Below are positions 5,335 to 47,853 of a DNA stretch of 57,241 bases, in pieces. The notes below the pieces were generated by a model that did no database searches, was not told the DNA's origin, and saw nothing but the letters and a program-made list of their open reading frames with translations. Each line of letters opens with the position of its first letter. Position 1 is the first letter of the stretch. This DNA comes from a bacterium (GTDB taxonomy: Bacteria > Actinomycetota > Acidimicrobiia > Spongiisociales > Spongiisociaceae). Both the position numbers and the translations under genes were made by a program. The stretch is from NCBI GenBank assembly GCA_028821235.1, contig JAPPGV010000028.1, positions 1 to 57,241 of the forward strand, in the 5' to 3' direction.

Positions 5335-6129
5335 TCAGGGCGTAGAACCGGGTTCGGGAAACTCGCTGACCGGGAACACGTCGTTGACGAGCAGCAGGTC
5401 GGCATTCGGGCAGTGCGGGAGCCATGTGCGGCGCCACTCGCTTCCGGGGATGTGGTAGAGGATCTCGTCGCCGGCAACGATCTCGGCCTCCAGCTCGTAC
5501 CTGCTGTGGCGGCTGATCTGCACGCCTTCGTGGGGGAGTGAGAACTCGATAGGGAACCCGTCGAGGTCGCCCCGGATGGTCTCGCTGACCAGGAGCGGAG
5601 TTGCGGGATCGGTGACGTCGATCAGCCGAACGTGGAGCATGGCATCGCGGGGCAGGTCCTCAGCAGCCGGCCCGGAGTGAATCTGTCCCGGCAGGGGCTC
5701 GATGCAGGTGTCAAAGGGGTTGGTGGAGATGACCACGACATCGGAGTTCGCCGGAGCGCCCCCGGTCAGCACGAGGTGGACGGTGTCGTTGACGTACAAG
5801 AGGTCATCGCCGAGTCTGACGTCGGCGCTCAGCGAGTACTCGTTGCCGCTGACGATCAGGTCGCGGTCGTAATCGATGCGGAAGCGGGCCGGGAGGCGGT
5901 CGGCGTTCTCGATGACATCGAGCCCCAGTTCCACGGAGGGGGCATCGGCCAGCGTGATGTCCAGCAGTCGGACGGTGATGACCGCGCCCTCGGGCAGCTC
6001 GACCTCGCGGGCGAAGCGCACCTCGCCGGAGATGGATCCCGAAGACCCCTGCGGCGCGCAGGCAACCGTCGCCGCAAGGGCCGTGACCGCGACCGCCATC
6101 ATGAATGGACGCGCTAAACGATGAGCCAC
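5335..6129 (-). CDS. Lipoprotein with two YbaY/YscW-like beta domains
   Basis: A 264-residue protein with a lipoprotein signal peptide: the basic stretch MAHRLARPF, a hydrophobic core and a Cys in LAATVACA. The GTG at 6129 is preferred over the ATGs at 6102 and 6099 because only it supplies the positively charged n-region; it overlaps the ctaB stop by 16 bases. After the signal come two related domains (residues about 33-125 and 155-240) sharing the patterns ITVRLLDITLADAP and LHVRLIDVTDPATP, followed by SLSADV and ELEAEI. This resembles the YbaY/YscW family of small beta-sandwich lipoproteins. Its operon with haem A genes hints at a link to respiratory-complex assembly or the envelope, but function is unknown. 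Confidence 0.72.
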   Translation of the reverse strand: MAHRLARPFMMAVAVTALAATVACAPQGSSGSISGEVRFAREVELPEGAVITVRLLDITLADAPSVELGLDVIENADRLPARFRIDYDRDLIVSGNEYSLSADVRLGDDLLYVNDTVHLVLTGGAPANSDVVVISTNPFDTCIEPLPGQIHSGPAAEDLPRDAMLHVRLIDVTDPATPLLVSETIRGDLDGFPIEFSLPHEGVQISRHSRYELEAEIVAGDEILYHIPGSEWRRTWLPHCPNADLLLVNDVFPVSEFPEPGSTP

Positions 6130-7013
6130 CGGGTCACCAGCGAATCGACTCCTACGGCGCCGAAGAGCAGGGCCAGATACAGGAGTGAGAACAGGTACAG
6201 AGCTCTAGCACCCTCGGTTCCCTCACCGCGTGCCAGGCGGACTGCCAGGACGATGAAGCCCGTGCCGAGGGCGACGGCGCCGACCAGGTAGAGCCAACCG
6301 ACCGCGCCCGTGGCGACGAACGTCGCGGAGAGCACCACCAGCACCACGGTGTAGGCCAGGATCTGGCGCTTGGTCGCAGCCAGCGTGGCGACCACCGGCA
6401 GCATCGGGATCCCGGCGCGGGCGTAGTCGTCCTTGATCAGCAGGGCCAGGGCCCAGAAGTGCGGCGGCGTCCACAGGAAGATGATGGCGAACAGGTAGAC
6501 CGCCGGTAGCTCGACCGTCCCGGTCACCGCCGCCCAGCCGACCAGGGGTGGGACCGCGCCGGCGGCGCCGCCGATGACGATGTTCTGGGGCGTCGTCCGC
6601 TTGAGGCCCTTGGTGTACACGAACAGGTAGAAAAGGGTGCCGACCATGGCGAGCAGGCCGCTGAGGACGTTCACGAAGGCAGCCAGGATCACGAAGGCGC
6701 CCAGGTTGAGAAGGATTCCGAAGCCGTAGGCCTGCCATTTGGAGACCCTCCCGCCGGCTACGGGGCGGGTGCTGGTACGGACCATCTTTTGGTCTATGTC
6801 GCGTTCGGCGCCGTGGTTGAGAGCGTTGGCTCCGCCGGCCGCCAGGTAGCCGGAGAGGACGACGAAGACGACTACGAGGGGATCGGGCCGGCCCTCGGCG
6901 GCCAGGAAAATGCTCCCCACGGCCGTGATCAGCAGCAGGGCCGTGATCTGGGGCTTGGTGAGCGCGATGTAGTCGCTCACCACCCTGGATGCGCGAGTGC
7001 CCGGAGCCGGCAT
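6114..7013 (-). CDS. ctaB: Protohaem IX farnesyltransferase (haem O synthase)
   Basis: A 299-residue integral membrane prenyltransferase of the UbiA superfamily that adds a farnesyl group to haem B to make haem O for terminal oxidases. The first Asp-rich motif is in ANALNHGAERDIDQKMVRTS (residues 62-81) followed by TRPVAGGR; a second conserved loop is seen around WTPPHFWALALLIKDDYARAG. Eight or nine membrane spans are apparent. The ATG at 7013 shares its A with the ctaA stop (TGATG), so translation is coupled to haem A synthase. The length matches the family. Confidence 0.95.
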   Translation of the reverse strand: MPAPGTRASRVVSDYIALTKPQITALLLITAVGSIFLAAEGRPDPLVVVFVVLSGYLAAGGANALNHGAERDIDQKMVRTSTRPVAGGRVSKWQAYGFGILLNLGAFVILAAFVNVLSGLLAMVGTLFYLFVYTKGLKRTTPQNIVIGGAAGAVPPLVGWAAVTGTVELPAVYLFAIIFLWTPPHFWALALLIKDDYARAGIPMLPVVATLAATKRQILAYTVVLVVLSATFVATGAVGWLYLVGAVALGTGFIVLAVRLARGEGTEGARALYLFSLLYLALLFGAVGVDSLVTRWLIV

Positions 7014-18174: not shown

Positions 18175-19428
18175 GTGGCGGACACACGCCCCGACGCGCA
18201 CGGATCTCGCGAGCACGATCACTCCGACCATGATCACCATGATCATGATGACCATTCGGGCCACGATCACCAGGGGCATGATCATTCCGGCCACGATCAC
18301 TCCGACCATGATCACCATGATCATGATGACCATTCGGGCCACGATCACCAGGGGCATGATCATTCCGGCCACGATCACCATGACCATGATCACGACGACC
18401 ATTCCGGGCATGACCATGATGACCACGACGACCATTCCGGCCATGACCACCACGGCCACGGCCACCACGGGCATGGCCATGGGCACGGAGGCCATGACCA
18501 CTCCCATGACCTGCGAGGCGTCAGCAAGCGCGCTCTGACCATCGCGCTGATCCTCATAGCCGGTTTCATGTTCGCCGAGGTCATCGGCGGCGTTCTCACG
18601 AAGAGCCTGGCTCTGCTGTCGGACGCCGGTCATATGGTCTCCGACGCCATGTCGATCGCCCTCGCCCTGGTAGCCCTTCGCTTCGCGGAGCGAGAGGCCA
18701 CGGTAGAACGCACCTACGGCTACCAACGTCTGGAGGCCCTCGCCGCCATGGTGAACGCCCTCACCCTCTGGGTCGTCGGTTTCTGGGTGCTACTCGAGGC
18801 CTATCACCGGATACAGGACGTCCCGGAGGTGGAAGGGGTCGGCATGCTCATCGTGGGCGTGCTGGGGTTGCTGGTCAATGTGGCGGCGGCGTGGGTGCTC
18901 CATCGTTCCGCCAAGGACAGCATCAACGTAGAGGGCGCCTTCCAGCATGTCATGGCCGACCTGCTGGGGTCCGTAGGTGTGGTCATTTCGGGCATCGTCA
19001 TCATTACGACCGGATGGAACACGATCGATCCCATCCTCAGCGTGGTCATCGCGCTACTGATCCTCCGGAGCGCCTGGCCGCTGTCGGTCAAGGTTTTCCA
19101 CGTTCTGGTGGATTCTGTTCCGGCGGACATCGATGTCTACAAGTTGGGGAGCGATCTGGAGGTCGAGGGGGTCACCCTGATCCACGACATCCATGTCCGG
19201 GCCGTCAGCTCGGATGAGACGACGTTCTCCGGCCACATCATGATCGACCCGGATTACGAAGGAGACACCAACGAGTTGCTTCGCCGGCTCCGCGACATCA
19301 TCAAGGGACACGGCATCAACCACATCACCATCCAGGTCGACAAGACCATGTCACCAAGTGGCGAGTTGGGCTGCGAGGAGAACCACCACGTCAACTACTT
19401 GGCAGCGCGATCGAGAACCCGACCGTAG
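18175..19428 (+). CDS. Cation diffusion facilitator (Zn/Co/Cd exporter) with giant His-Asp-rich tail
   Basis: A CDF transporter of 417 residues. After 13 ordinary residues comes a roughly 100-residue cytosolic segment made almost only of His, Asp, Gly and Ser, a metal-binding tail far longer than in typical CzcD/ZitB proteins. The core follows with six helices and the transport-site motifs SLALLSDAGHMVSDAMSIAL (HxxxD-type site in helix 2) and FQHVMADLLGSVGV (helix 5), then a C-terminal cytoplasmic domain (VEGVTLIHDIHVRAVS). GTG 18175 is chosen because GAAAGG lies 8 bases before it; GTG 18166 is an alternative. The tail contains a 78-bp perfect tandem duplication. Confidence 0.92.
   Translation: MADTRPDAHGSREHDHSDHDHHDHDDHSGHDHQGHDHSGHDHSDHDHHDHDDHSGHDHQGHDHSGHDHHDHDHDDHSGHDHDDHDDHSGHDHHGHGHHGHGHGHGGHDHSHDLRGVSKRALTIALILIAGFMFAEVIGGVLTKSLALLSDAGHMVSDAMSIALALVALRFAEREATVERTYGYQRLEALAAMVNALTLWVVGFWVLLEAYHRIQDVPEVEGVGMLIVGVLGLLVNVAAAWVLHRSAKDSINVEGAFQHVMADLLGSVGVVISGIVIITTGWNTIDPILSVVIALLILRSAWPLSVKVFHVLVDSVPADIDVYKLGSDLEVEGVTLIHDIHVRAVSSDETTFSGHIMIDPDYEGDTNELLRRLRDIIKGHGINHITIQVDKTMSPSGELGCEENHHVNYLAARSRTRP
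18214..18369 (+). repeat. Perfect 78-bp tandem duplication in the CDF histidine tail
   Basis: Two identical 78-base units, 18214-18291 and 18292-18369, each encode 26 residues (HDHSDHDHHDHDDHSG followed by HDHQGHDHSG). A third unit starts identically at 18370 and then diverges. Because 78 is a multiple of three, gain or loss of a unit keeps the frame and changes only tail length. Confidence 0.95.
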
Positions 19429-34822: not shown

Positions 34823-35689
34823 ATGTATCCACGACAGTTCGACTACGTAGCGCCCTCCAGCCTGGATGAGGCGCTGGCTGCTCTCGATGCGAATCCGGGA
34901 GCCAAGGTGCTGGCCGGTGGCATGAGCCTGCTGCCGATGATGAAGATGCGGCTGCTGTCGCCCGAGATGGTGGTGGACATCGGCCGGATCGGCGGGTTGG
35001 GCGACATCACCGACAACGGTGATTCCATCTCGATCGGTGCGCTGGTGACCCATGCCGAGGTTGCGGCCAGCGGCCTGGTCCAGGACCACGGCGCGGCGCT
35101 GGCCACGGCTGCTTCCTGGACGGGTGATCGCCAGGTCCGCAACCGTGGTACGTGTTGCGGGTCGATGGCGCACGCCGATGTGGCGGCCGACCAGCCGGTT
35201 GCGGCGCTCGCTCTGGGCGCCACGATGGTGGTGGCGTCGTCGGGAGGCACGCGTGAGATCGCGGCCGCCGACTTCTTCGTGGACACCTTGATGTCCGCGT
35301 TGGAGCCCGGCGAGATCCTGACCGAGATGCGGATTCCCAAGGTCGGCGCCGGCACGGGTTCGGCTTATGACAAGCTGGGCCGCCGTGGTGGTCACACGGA
35401 CTATGCGGTGGCCGGCGTGGCCGCTTCGGTGACCCGTTCCAACGGTTCGGTCAGCGCGGCCACCGTCGCGGTGACCGGTGTGGGCAGCCGCCCCGTTCTG
35501 GTGGACGAGGTTGCCGACGCGCTGGTCGGTTCCGATGGTTCCGACGCCGCCGTCGAGGCCGCGGCCGCCCATGCGACGTGCGGGATCGACGTGCTGGAGG
35601 ACCTGTACGGGTCGGTGGCCTACAAGACCCACCTCGCCCAGCTGTTCGCAGCCCGGGCCGTGAAGGCAGCCCTGGCCGCGGCCGGGTAG
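34823..35689 (+). CDS. coxM: FAD-binding medium subunit (CoxM family)
   Basis: A 288-residue FAD subunit accepting electrons from CoxS. The first flavin loop is LAGGMSLLPMM (usually AGGQSL) and the second VRNRGTCCGSMAHADVAADQP, where family members typically have TxGGSxAHADPAxD; the substitution of GG by CC and loss of the proline are notable. The C-terminal CO_deh_flav_C domain ends near 286. The gene follows coxL by 13 bases with a GGAGGAG ribosome site. A strong terminator follows, cutting it off from the rest of the cluster. Confidence 0.92.
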   Translation: MYPRQFDYVAPSSLDEALAALDANPGAKVLAGGMSLLPMMKMRLLSPEMVVDIGRIGGLGDITDNGDSISIGALVTHAEVAASGLVQDHGAALATAASWTGDRQVRNRGTCCGSMAHADVAADQPVAALALGATMVVASSGGTREIAAADFFVDTLMSALEPGEILTEMRIPKVGAGTGSAYDKLGRRGGHTDYAVAGVAASVTRSNGSVSAATVAVTGVGSRPVLVDEVADALVGSDGSDAAVEAAAAHATCGIDVLEDLYGSVAYKTHLAQLFAARAVKAALAAAG

Positions 35690-35726
35690 CCCGCCGGCAC
35701 AGCCGAAAGACAACACAACCCGACCC

Positions 35727-35762
35727 AACCGGCCGCCCCACCAGACCCCGGGGCGGCCGGTT
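35727..35762 (+). terminator. Strong hairpin terminator after coxM
   Basis: AACCGGCCGCCCC (35727-35739) pairs perfectly with GGGGCGGCCGGTT (35750-35762) over a 10-base loop and runs into TTTCGTCT. It ends the coxSLM unit 38 bases after the stop. Confidence 0.85.
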
Positions 35763-35821
35763 TCGTCTGCCCTCACCCTTCCACGTGGAGTTCTCCCGGC
35801 GTTTCCGGGATAGGCCAGGGT

Positions 35822-35903
35822 GAAAAGTTGTACTAGAAGCCGTGAAATAGTTGTACTCCGAACGACGAAAAAGTTGTACTCAAAGCTGCGAAATAGTTGT
35901 ATT
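35822..35903 (+). repeat. Four direct repeats (AGTTGTACT) with exact 23-bp period
   Basis: The core AGTTGT occurs at 35826, 35849, 35872 and 35895, each spaced 23 bases, with conserved flanks GAAAxAGTTGTACT; the last copy degenerates to AGTTGTATT. The array is AT-rich relative to its surroundings and ends 8 bases before the ATPase start codon. This looks like an iteron or multi-site operator, with a period of about two helical turns so that all copies face one side of the helix. Confidence 0.85.
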
Positions 35904-35911
35904 GTGGTGAG

Positions 35912-37138
35912 ATGGTTGAGTATCGGAAGCGTCTGATCGACGGGGTTCTGGCACAGCGAATGGCCGCTCTACCTGCGGTTATGCTGGTAGGGCCCAGGGC
36001 AACGGGTAAGACGACGACCGCGGTCAGACATGCCCGGACGGTGGTGCGGATGGACCGGCCTGCCGAGGCAGCGGTGTTCCAGGCCGACCCGGACGCCGCG
36101 CTCGGCCGTGACCTTCCCGAACCCGTGCTGCTCGACGAGTGGCAGATGGTGCCCGAGGTGCTGGGGGCCGTGAAGCGGGCTGTCGACCGGGACTCCCGAC
36201 CCGGGCGGTTCATCCTGGCCGGATCGCTACACAGGACCCTCGGCACTCCCGGCGGCTGGCCCGGGGTGGGCCGGGTCGTGAGCCTGGAGATCTGGCCGTT
36301 CACGGTGTCCGAACAGCAGGCGACGGCTACCAAGCCGCTGATCGAGCGCGTAGTCGATGGAGACGACTTGAGACCCGCCGATCCGGGGTTGGACATCCGC
36401 GACTACGTGGATCTCGCCGTTCTGGGCGGCTTTCCCGAGGTGTCGCTGGTCGTGGCCGAATCCGAGCGGAGGGCCTGGCTGGACGGGTATATCGACGGAT
36501 TGATGGTCCGGGATGTGTTGGGTGGTCGCAATCCGGCCCTGTTCCGCAACTTCTTCAACGTCTACGCGGCCAACTCCGCCGGAGTGGTCACCGATCAGAA
36601 GCTCCGCGATTCGGCCCGGATCAACCACCGGACCGCACAAGCCCACCGGCAGCACCTCCTGAACCTGATGGTGGCCGACGAGCTACCGGCCTGGTCCACG
36701 AACCGGCTGAAGCGGTTGGGCCGGTCCCCCAAGCGGTATCTCACCGATTCGGGCCTACTGGCCGCCGCTATGGGCGCCGATTCGGAAGGCGTGCTGCGCC
36801 ACGGCGACCTGCTCGGTCGGGTCCTCGAGACCTTCGTGGTGGCGCAGATACGGGCCGAGGCGACCGCGGTCGGGCGCAAGCCGGTCCTGCATCATCTACG
36901 GTCGGGGGACGGGCGGCACGAGATCGATCTGATCGTAGAGATGGACGCCTGGCGGGTCCTCGGCATCGAGATCAAGGCGACGTCCGCGCCGGACCGCGGC
37001 GACGCCCAGCATCTGATCTGGCTGCGCGATCGGCTGGGCGAGGAGTTCGTCGGAGGGGTGGTCCTGCACACCGGGCCCTGGCCTTACTTGATCGGTGACC
37101 GGATCGTCGCGGCGCCGATCAGCACTCTCTGGGCGTAG
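35912..37138 (+). CDS. AAA ATPase with DUF4143 and nuclease-like C-terminus
   Basis: A 408-residue protein: Walker A GPRATGKT (27-34), Walker B LLDEWQ (73-78), sensor-like ILAGSLHRTL (101-110), then a DUF4143-type winged region (NHRTAQAHRQHLLNLMVADELPAW) and a C-terminal PD-(D/E)xK-like pattern HEIDLIVE...GIEIKAT (E337, D339, E353, K355). ATG 35912 follows GGTGAG. Such ATPases are common mobile or accessory genes of uncertain function, possibly defence- or toxin-antitoxin-related. It interrupts the cox cluster between coxM and coxD and carries its own repeat array upstream, which points to insertion. Confidence 0.85.
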   Translation: MVEYRKRLIDGVLAQRMAALPAVMLVGPRATGKTTTAVRHARTVVRMDRPAEAAVFQADPDAALGRDLPEPVLLDEWQMVPEVLGAVKRAVDRDSRPGRFILAGSLHRTLGTPGGWPGVGRVVSLEIWPFTVSEQQATATKPLIERVVDGDDLRPADPGLDIRDYVDLAVLGGFPEVSLVVAESERRAWLDGYIDGLMVRDVLGGRNPALFRNFFNVYAANSAGVVTDQKLRDSARINHRTAQAHRQHLLNLMVADELPAWSTNRLKRLGRSPKRYLTDSGLLAAAMGADSEGVLRHGDLLGRVLETFVVAQIRAEATAVGRKPVLHHLRSGDGRHEIDLIVEMDAWRVLGIEIKATSAPDRGDAQHLIWLRDRLGEEFVGGVVLHTGPWPYLIGDRIVAAPISTLWA

Positions 37139-37167
37139 GAGGGTGCGTCGCCTCAGGTGGGGACGTG

Positions 37168-37173
37168 TATCCT
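37168..37173 (+). promoter_or_regulatory. Putative -10 box (TATCCT) for leaderless coxD
   Basis: TATCCT lies 7 bases before the coxD ATG, between the end of the inserted ATPase and coxD. It would give the maturation genes their own leaderless promoter downstream of the coxM terminator. Confidence 0.5.
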
Positions 37174-37180
37174 CCTCGCG

Positions 37181-38065
<885 letters not shown>

Positions 38066-45817: not shown

Positions 45818-46390
45818 ATGATGGCTGCTCGAAGGGCCGTACCGTTTATCGCGGTTGTCCTGGCGCTCGCGGCATGCGGCGGGGATGACTCGACGTCCGA
45901 GACCACATCGGCTCCGACCGGCGCATCTCCTACCACCACCAGTACCGCGGTAATCGAAATGGTGGAGTCTGGCGCCGACACCTCGGCTACCGCTGCCTCT
46001 ATAGCAGAGGACGCTGTCGAGCCCGAGGGTGATGGAGATTCGCAAAAGGAGGGGGCGGACACCACCCTGCCACCGGCCATTCCACCGTACGAGGTGATAC
46101 ACCGTCTCATAGCGAATGATCGCACCACCCTCGTGATCCTGGTCGAGCCCGGCGCTTATACCACCGTCCAGTTGGAGAACCTGGTCTACGACGTGGTGGA
46201 CACGTATTCCCCCAACACTGCCATCGTCGTGGACGACCGGGCGGCCGCCGATTTGGCCATCAAGGACGATCTCACCCCCGAGGAGCAGTCGACCCTCGAC
46301 GCCCGGACGTTCCTGAGGATCGAGAACGGAGTGGACGTGACGTTCCACGGTCCTTATGCCGATGCCGGCGGCATGACAGTCGGCAGCTAA
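45818..46390 (+). CDS. Putative lipoprotein, Ser/Thr/Glu-rich linker and folded C-terminus
   Basis: A 190-residue secreted lipoprotein: signal peptide MMAARRAVPFIAVVLALAAC with lipobox LAAC. A low-complexity region of about 65 residues (Ser, Thr, Asp, Glu) follows and then a folded part (PPYEVIHRLIANDRTTLVILVEPG, VQLENLVYDVVDTYSPNTAIVVDD). I do not recognise a family. ATG 45818 follows AAGGA by 9 bases. It converges with mgtE across a heptamer repeat array. Confidence 0.7.
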   Translation: MMAARRAVPFIAVVLALAACGGDDSTSETTSAPTGASPTTTSTAVIEMVESGADTSATAASIAEDAVEPEGDGDSQKEGADTTLPPAIPPYEVIHRLIANDRTTLVILVEPGAYTTVQLENLVYDVVDTYSPNTAIVVDDRAAADLAIKDDLTPEEQSTLDARTFLRIENGVDVTFHGPYADAGGMTVGS

Positions 46391-46392
46391 TT

Positions 46393-46453
46393 CTAGTTGC
46401 TAGTTGCTAGTTGCTAGTTGCTAGTTGCTAGTTATAACTTATGTAACAACTAG
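46393..46453. repeat. CTAGTTG heptamer array with inverted copy
   Basis: Five perfect CTAGTTG units run head-to-tail from 46393 to 46427, followed by CTAGTTA (46428-46434). An inverted CAACTAG follows at 46447-46453, so the transcript can form alternative hairpins. The array sits between the convergent lipoprotein and mgtE genes, three bases after the former's stop. The same heptamer forms the hairpin at 27925. Confidence 0.9.
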
Positions 46454-46470
46454 AAACTAGAGACGAGAAA

Positions 46471-47853
46471 CTAGCGAAGCAGTAGGGTGGCGACCATGAG
46501 GAACCCGCCGAACCCGACTACATCGGTGACCAGCGTCAGGAAGATGTTCGAGGCCAGTGCCGGGTCCAGTCCCAACTTGCGAAGCAACAGAGGGATACCC
46601 GTGCCGGACAACGTTCCTATGACAAGGTTGACGACAGTTGCTATTCCCATGGTGACGGCGAAGTTCACCGTTCCGCCGAACACCAGCCCGACAGTTCCGG
46701 CGAGCAGACCGACCGGTATGGAGTTGATCACGCCGATGGCAACCTGATTCATCAGCACGCGCCCTGCCCGACTCGGCGTGACGCCGTCAATCGCCATCGA
46801 CCGGATAACCACGGCCAGGCTTTGTGCCCCGGCGTTGCCGCCCATCAGCGCCACCACCGGCATGAGCGCGGCCAGTACCGGGCCGATGTCGTCGATCACC
46901 GCGGACTGCCGCTCGATGACCAGCGCCACCACCAGGGCCATGGCAAGATTCACCAACATCCACGGAAGGCGCATGCCGGCCGCTCGTGCTACGGGCGTGA
47001 AGACCGTCTCCTCGGGCCCGGCGCCCATCGCGGCGGCGAAGTCCTCCGAGGCCTCGGCCTGGACCGACTCCACTACTGCCTCGTGGGTGACCATGCCCAG
47101 CAGGACGCCCGAGTGATCGACCACCGGCAGTCCGAACAGGCCGTAGCGCTGCGCCAGCTCGGAGACCTCTTCCCGATCTGTGTCAGGACGTACGGCGACC
47201 GGTTGGTGCACCATGGTCTCGTCGAGTCCCACCCCGGGCCGCGCGAACACCAGGTCCCGGAACGACACCACGCCGACCAGCAGGCGCCGATGATCGACCA
47301 CGTAGACATAGGAGAGGTCCTCGATCTGGTCGTGGAGCTGGCGGAGACGCTCGATGGCTTCCCCCGCGGTCATCCCCACCTGCAGGAATGCCAAGTCAGT
47401 CGTCATCAGCCCGCCCGCCGAGTCAGGAGCGTGCTGGAGGAGAGCGAGCAACTCGTGGGAGATCCCGGGATCGAGGCCGGCCAGTACCTGCTCCCGGTTC
47501 TTCTCGTCCAGCTGGCCGAGCAGGTCGGCCGCCATGTCGGCATCCATGGCCGCGACGAGATCCGAAGTTCGGGCCGGGTTGAGCCCTTCGAGAACATCAA
47601 CGCCCAACTCGGGGCGCATCTCGTTGAGGATTCCGGCTGCGTCAGCGACATCGAGGTCGGAGAGCAGGTCGGTAGCCGCGTCGGTGTCCAGTTCCTCGAG
47701 GATGTCTGCCGCGTCATGGGGGTCGGCGCCGGCCAGTTCCTGCCACTCGGCGGTATGGGTATCCAGGTACTGCTCGACCTCGTCCGGCTGGACCCGGGCC
47801 GTGCTCCGCAACCGCTGGGCGAGTTCCCTTGGCCGGGGCAGCTTTATTCGCAT
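46471..47853 (-). CDS. mgtE: Magnesium transporter MgtE
   Basis: A 460-residue magnesium channel of the inner membrane. It has the N-terminal superhelical domain (repeats such as DAADILEELDTDAATDLLSDLD), a CBS pair (about residues 145-265, with SAGGLMTTDLAFLQVGMTAGEAIERLR and LFGLPVVDHSGVLLGMVT), and five C-terminal helices with the pore motif PVVALMGGNAGAQSLAV. The acidic residues in the cytosolic domain sense Mg. GGTGGAG precedes the ATG. I found no M-box riboswitch in the 161-base leader. Confidence 0.95.
   Translation of the reverse strand: MRIKLPRPRELAQRLRSTARVQPDEVEQYLDTHTAEWQELAGADPHDAADILEELDTDAATDLLSDLDVADAAGILNEMRPELGVDVLEGLNPARTSDLVAAMDADMAADLLGQLDEKNREQVLAGLDPGISHELLALLQHAPDSAGGLMTTDLAFLQVGMTAGEAIERLRQLHDQIEDLSYVYVVDHRRLLVGVVSFRDLVFARPGVGLDETMVHQPVAVRPDTDREEVSELAQRYGLFGLPVVDHSGVLLGMVTHEAVVESVQAEASEDFAAAMGAGPEETVFTPVARAAGMRLPWMLVNLAMALVVALVIERQSAVIDDIGPVLAALMPVVALMGGNAGAQSLAVVIRSMAIDGVTPSRAGRVLMNQVAIGVINSIPVGLLAGTVGLVFGGTVNFAVTMGIATVVNLVIGTLSGTGIPLLLRKLGLDPALASNIFLTLVTDVVGFGGFLMVATLLLR

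Follow-up and report, generated by a model that had tools for sequence, protein, structure and literature searches.

Direct repeats with an exact 23-bp step lie immediately ahead of a gene for a DUF4143 ATPase that interrupts a cox gene cluster, and they raise the question of which protein reads them and to what end. We analysed this locus within a 57,241-nucleotide stretch of DNA (the window). The evidence favours an account in which the gene encodes a self-addressed NTPase–nuclease of the PDC-S01 (AAA_14–DUF4143) kind, a one-gene system that would bind the array ahead of its own gene and repress its own expression. We put the probability of this whole account at roughly 0.6.

A single phased array precedes the gene

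The sequence AGTTGTACT occurs at 35826, 35849 and 35872 and AGTTGTATT at 35895, a step of exactly 23 bp, as a first-pass annotation of this DNA had reported. The same annotation placed the end of the array at the ATPase start, and the last of the four units indeed ends 8 bp upstream of the ATG at 35912. The pattern AGTTGTACT-N14-AGTTGTA, allowing up to three mismatches, was observed 3 times against an expectation of 0.02. The unit is longer than the 9-mer originally described: a conserved 17-bp core, which in most window units reads nGYGAAAWAGTTGTAYT, precedes about six variable bases. With the register taken from the subfamily motif (see below), the forward-strand cores read from the sequence are GGGTGAAAAGTTGTACT (35818–35834) and, at exact 23-bp steps, CGTGAAATAGTTGTACT (35841–35857), GACGAAAAAGTTGTACT (35864–35880) and TGCGAAATAGTTGTATT (35887–35903), where the 8 bp separating the last core from the ATG is the modal distance in 80 homologous arrays.

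Scanning the entire window for lag-23 self-similarity identified this array alone (35823–35901) and no other segment of comparable score. A CRISPR array is ruled out by the 23-bp unit, in which the 17-bp core and roughly six variable bases leave no spacer of CRISPR length, and by the examined flanking genes, which are those of the cox cluster. Repeats of other kinds are present in the window. Between two gene regions, 46386–46474 contains six CTAGTTG heptamers in head-to-tail order and, after them, about four AACTAGA heptamers in inverted orientation. The repeats at 18211–18479, of 78 bp and 15 bp, look in-frame and abound in CATGATCACGACCAT, which suggests a His/Asp-rich metal-binding stretch.

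An ATPase fused to a PD-(D/E)XK domain

The gene (35912–37138, forward strand) encodes a protein of 408 amino acids that we characterized by Pfam, PADLOC, structure modelling and fold matching. ATG 35912 is the likely start because homologue alignments begin there; the TTG at 35897 that serves as the start in the open reading frame listing falls within array unit 4. AAA_14 and DUF4143 are the only Pfam domains above the cut-off; the Rep initiator domain that an iteron-type replicon would encode next to its repeats is not among them. The PADLOC model PDLC04790 (PDC-S01) matches the full length of the protein (residues 1–408, E = 1.7e-98), and on this sequence match the gene is a member of PDC-S01, a candidate defence gene.

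An AlphaFold2 model of the protein alone, without DNA (mean pLDDT 92.4), comprises a STAND-like AAA ATPase (residues ~1–200), a winged helix (~200–262) and a PD-(D/E)XK nuclease domain (~263–408). The recognition helix (residues 239–251) is the second helix of the winged-helix HTH, and residues 331–336 form a turn that joins two strands directly before E337 and D339. A PDB sequence search with the window protein returned no significant relative. Among the PDB fold matches listed for residues 1–290 are PAB2304 (2qen, Z 14.4) and SSO1545 (2fna, Z 13.4), with NLRs and CED-4 (Z about 12) and also Avs5 lower among those listed. For the C-terminal domain alone, the matches listed are to Can2, Card1 and McrC, with Z values of 8–10 (Can2 9.9, McrC 8.2).

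The ATPase residues G27..GK33T34 (Walker A), D75 and E76 (the Walker B acidic pair), S105 (sensor) and R121 (the arginine position) are near-invariant across 80 array-bearing proteins, and the window protein thus combines an NBD and winged-helix fold with STAND/MNS-type ATPase residues. It likewise has both the PD-(D/E)XK fold and the E...D...ExK residues. All 80 array-bearing proteins have E337, D339 and E353, and 77 of the 80 have K355. The nuclease ancestry earlier suspected from the C-terminal ExK pattern is therefore borne out by a recognizable domain with intact catalytic residues, and because array-bearing proteins keep these residues we would expect the nuclease to be active.

The unit is an old and repeatedly lost insertion at the coxM–coxD junction

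The upstream flank is a coxM-like flavoprotein gene (34823–35689, forward strand; domain search), separated from the array by a GC-rich inverted repeat from the repeat listing (35722–35767, no strand assigned) that is probably the coxM terminator. Downstream lies a MoxR/coxD-like AAA gene (37157–38065, forward strand; domain search), after which come coxE, xdhC and mobA-like genes. The location between the coxM terminator and coxD is thus as first annotated.

A comparison of this junction in related genomes, which that annotation had proposed, yielded filled, decayed and clean examples. Gene and array are present at the junction in four of the ten genomes of the genus. Three further genomes of the genus, together with a second genus, retain array remnants, some with gene stubs. 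The remaining three genomes of the genus, like one other relative, show a short junction without any trace of the unit. The ATPase is therefore not conserved at this position in all related cox clusters. A third genus has a complete orthologue (76% identity) at a distance of about 1 kb from coxD, with the array core kept and the spacers drifted. The view of the gene as inserted into the cluster is upheld by the empty or decayed junctions of relatives, but the insertion is not recent: because an orthologue of about 76% identity sits beside coxD in another genus, the unit entered the site before the genera split. It has been lost repeatedly, and so is dispensable, yet it is kept under selection where it is present. 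No terminal inverted repeats or target duplications were identified in the filled, decayed and clean junctions, and the clean junctions of relatives have diverged such that no base-exact empty site is definable. In another genus (L103/L144; G011, OY282370) an AbrB-like antitoxin region is also found beside coxD at the coxM–coxD junction, which therefore appears to collect insertions.

Arrays with a 23-bp period are a trait of the gene family

The source genome has 13 DUF4143 genes, and there are about 98 matches across the ten genomes of the genus. A search for arrays ahead of other DUF4143 genes, also proposed in the first-pass annotation, found them widely. When self-similarity was scored at each lag from 12 to 60 upstream of 70 DUF4143 genes of the genus, lag 23 had a mean score of 14.8 and reached at least 10 in 44/70, lag 46 came second and the remaining lags all lay between 3.7 and 5.1. 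The arrays of paralogues differ in sequence (for example CGCAAAGTGGAGT, TGTATGCGATA and CTGTAGGATGA). No co-resident paralogues sharing one array were found, in a comparison of 11 pairs that is too small to claim avoidance.

The subfamily of the window gene, represented by 79 genes drawn from 85,000 species genomes (set A2), spans Acidimicrobiia, Actinomycetes (among them Frankia and Microbispora), Chloroflexi, Planctomycetota and Elusimicrobia. The lag-23 score is at least 10 upstream of 66 of the 79 genes (mean 19.8), whereas lags other than multiples of 23 each give such a score in at most three of the 79. Scores of at least 10 at lag 23 were obtained for 7/469 regions upstream of neighbouring ORFs, two of which resemble further arrays of this kind, and for 0/71 regions downstream of the gene, 0/79 inside the gene and 1/79 shuffled sequences. 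The ArchATPase family (PF01637), considered as a control, has no true member in the genus. With a matrix that imposes no period, the interval between units is 23 bp in 152 of 169 cases (46 bp in 7, 22 in 5, 21 in 2, 17 in 2, 54 in 1 and 24 in 0). Homologous arrays contain 2–6 units of the form TGYGnnAAAnC-GGTAYT plus about six variable bases, with the last unit usually about 8 bp (the mode) from the start codon. Two genomes of 2.3 and 3.4 Mb (G009 and G198) carry 22 and 23 DUF4143 matches, respectively, which suggests many co-resident specificities. The phage records matched are seven in number, weak (25–27% identity), unannotated and metagenomic.

Outside this clade the upstream sites take other forms. 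Plasmid homologues of about 30% identity in Rhizobium, Sinorhizobium, Novosphingobium, Phyllobacterium and Azotobacter have a 22-bp step, and steps of 22, 24 and 32 bp occur in places in the Actinobacterial sample. The 32-bp step, about three helical turns, is found upstream of DUF4143 genes of other Actinobacterial families (L131, L134, L135 and L136), and the 24-bp step upstream of L122 and L301. At the start of several DUF4143 genes, large palindromes take the place of direct repeats. One such palindrome, TGAATGAtNATCATTCA, is common to an Acidimicrobiia paralogue and Thermus TT_P0211, and precedes DUF4143 genes of a single subfamily in Actinomycetota and Deinococcota (L009, L040 and L306, the last being TT_RS11170 on Thermus pTT27). 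In another subfamily (L004, L027, L028 and L166; second gene 5673–6882, reverse strand) the gene is preceded by the palindrome GGCTAATTCAAATT-N7-TTTGAATTAGCC. As a general rule, each DUF4143 gene seems to have an operator-like site of its own, and in the clade of the window gene this site takes the form of the 23-bp head-to-tail array.

Array bases covary with two segments of the adjacent protein

The two half-sites of the subfamily unit are spaced by about ten bases, which puts them on the same side of the double helix. In 66 protein–array pairs the highest mutual information values cluster between residues 331–335 and DNA bases 13–16, within the TGYG half-site, and a second cluster links residues 238–248 to bases 22 and 0–3, within the GGTA half-site. 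By DSSP of the model these residues fall in the hairpin loop directly before E337/D339 (codons 36902–36916, forward strand) and in the winged-helix recognition helix (codons 36623–36655, forward strand), respectively. When the set was extended to 80 pairs, the loop block came top among 329 sliding windows, a position that it keeps in sister-pair contrasts and in each half of a clade split (cross identity at most 63%). The helix block (DNA 22–3) takes first place among 317 windows when all pairs are used, and is 17th and 3rd when the clade-split halves are taken separately; because it is not significant in sister-pair contrasts, its signal may partly reflect shared ancestry.

In a leave-relatives-out test, each base was predicted from a single residue among about 400 columns, with relatives of more than 60% identity excluded. 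D333 is the best column for base 14 (0.65 against 0.29 for the majority base) and tied best for base 15, N238 is best for base 2 (0.61 against 0.38) and base 4 (0.62 against 0.28), and H239 is best for base 22. S331 comes second for base 16 (0.62 against 0.13), where L305 does better, and at DNA positions 0 and 1 neither segment supplies the best predictor. Individual pairings are chemically sensible and would fit direct reading: R335 is paired with G13 in 76/76 cases and Q335 with T13 in 2/2, D/E331 mostly with C16, and K/R240 with G1 or A1 in 68/69 while E/D/T/Q240 is paired with C1 in 8/8. A pair between base 13 and T34 in set g1 (score 606) was discarded as a near-zero-variance artefact, and covariation across a mixture of other subfamilies (set g2; 77 proteins whose register is not alignable) gave only noise, which we count neither way. 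Genome searches centred on other Actinobacteria, intended to enlarge the set, added almost nothing new, and the clade-split halves and leave-relatives-out prediction stand in place of a fully independent validation set.

A proposed model for self-binding and autorepression

Because the array bases covary with two segments of the adjacent protein, the protein itself very probably binds the array ahead of its own gene. Contact by loop 331–335 is well supported by these patterns and contact by helix 238–248 is probable. The first-pass annotation had left open whether the array is a site for the ATPase or for an unseen partner; the covariation points to the ATPase and disfavours the partner.

We propose that one protomer would occupy each 23-bp unit. 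The recognition helix (N238-H239-R240) would read the (G/T)GTAYT half-site. The nuclease hairpin loop (S331–R335), beside the catalytic E337/D339, would read the TGYG half-site, which faces the same side of the DNA at a distance of one helical turn, so that adjacent major grooves are read. The strict 23-bp step would bring neighbouring ATPase domains into contact, allowing 2–6 protomers to assemble cooperatively between about −95 and −8 relative to the start codon. We have moderate confidence in one protomer per unit and in cooperative assembly, the latter being suggested by the fixed unit spacing. The translation start would be covered by such an assembly, as would a promoter lying within about 95 bp, and the gene would thereby be repressed. 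Our confidence in autoregulation is also moderate: it follows from the position of the array, at which a scanner found no sigma-70-like promoter. If the nuclease were then released or activated, a response to invading DNA would be plausible.

Other explanations for the array have to be set against this account. Tandem repeats do arise by slippage, but the probability that this one is a functionless product of slippage or chance is negligible, as one exact period recurs across phyla in sequence-unrelated arrays and is rare at neighbouring genes, the core stays alike between orthologues that are 90% and 76% identical while the spacers drift, and the subfamily lag scan and its controls contradict it. 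It is very improbable that the array serves as operator for some other, unseen transcription factor. Repeats of this sort could in principle be recognized by other DNA-binding proteins, but within one genome the array sequence varies gene by gene, tracking residues of the adjacent protein. Within its genome the window array occurs at this gene alone, and a search of 59 genomes found it in no genus but its own; no second conserved gene was seen.

The first-pass suggestion of a selfish or defence-type unit agrees with the PDC-S01 assignment and the loss pattern, and takes two forms. The array could be the target of the protein's nuclease as well as its landing site, in which case gene and array would form a minimal selfish element, a homing or self-exclusion device acting by cleavage or recombination of DNA at arrays of its type. 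The placement of the base-reading loop directly before E337/D339, the retention of all catalytic residues in array-bearing proteins, the patchy distribution with repeated decay at one junction, and the occurrence of the gene in many copies per genome with differing arrays, and on many plasmids, would all suit such an element. We nonetheless consider it unlikely, given that the insertion is old, that no terminal repeats or target duplications were identified at the junction and the clean junctions of relatives do not yield a simple empty site, that an element which cut its own promoter would need tight control to avoid destroying itself, and that viral contigs contain no relatives of the window subfamily. 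A role in anti-phage defence, in which the array stores or represses a STAND-like nuclease until infection, whereupon it assembles elsewhere and degrades DNA, is a real possibility, if on balance somewhat improbable. The full-length PDC-S01 match argues for it, as do the resemblance of the fold to STAND ATPases including Avs5 and NLRs and of the nuclease to Can2/Card1 and McrC, and so does the Thermus homologue TT_P0211, whose RNA is 6.6-fold higher with plasmid DNA, only in Argonaute-positive cells (PMC4406477). Against this, PDC-S01 is a candidate by genomic embedding only, the window copy sits in a metabolic cluster and no sensor domain is apparent in the 408 amino acids. A defence function would be compatible with self-binding and autoregulation as proposed here.

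Relationship to known systems

Among defence candidates across prokaryotes, PDC-S01 is reported to rank fourth in abundance, with 29,494 bacterial and 9,986 archaeal systems, and validation is pending for most such candidates (PMC12988326). The arrays would provide a predicted DNA target for each PDC-S01 protein, together with a testable residue-to-base code. Their strict spacing rule points to a defined multimer on DNA, and the covariation suggests a part for a PD-(D/E)XK loop, next to the active site, in reading the gene's own operator. Tentatively, and with a little less than even confidence, we suggest that DUF4143/PDC-S01 proteins may be a large class of self-addressing one-gene systems. 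Each would read a private array at its own promoter through its winged helix and a nuclease specificity loop, with a readable residue-to-base code, so that several copies could share a cell without cross-talk. The nuclease would be directed against foreign or array-bearing DNA, and its spacing-locked, array-bound assembly would represent a resting or self-recognition state.

Array reading is probably a novel, undescribed feature of PDC-S01: among 5.39 million open papers, the literature on DUF4143, PDC-S01, COG1373 and direct repeats with AAA ATPases contained no account of the arrays. The window protein shares its full-length HMM match with PDC-S01, a PADLOC single-gene candidate (AAA_14 plus DUF4143, COG1373-type) in which the ATPase is fused to a PD-(D/E)XK domain (PMC12988326), whereas its upstream arrays and sequence recognition have no counterpart in the descriptions found. 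Over about 250 residues it has the same ATPase and winged-helix fold as the STAND/archaeal ATPases PAB2304 and SSO1545, to which it adds the C-terminal PD-(D/E)XK domain, itself apparently DNA-reading.

In the iteron arrays of theta plasmids, a Rep protein binds direct repeats beside its own gene. Like the window array, these are direct repeats about two helical turns apart beside a gene for a winged-helix protein; the window unit differs in lacking a Rep-type domain, in its chromosomal setting (a MAG contig) and in having repeats that diversify gene by gene. The CRISPR ancillary nucleases Can2, Card1 and Can1, and also McrC, have the same nuclease-domain fold as the window protein. They are switched by cyclic oligoadenylate or McrB, whereas the window protein has no CARF domain and, in its family, the bases of the array covary with the loop beside the active site.
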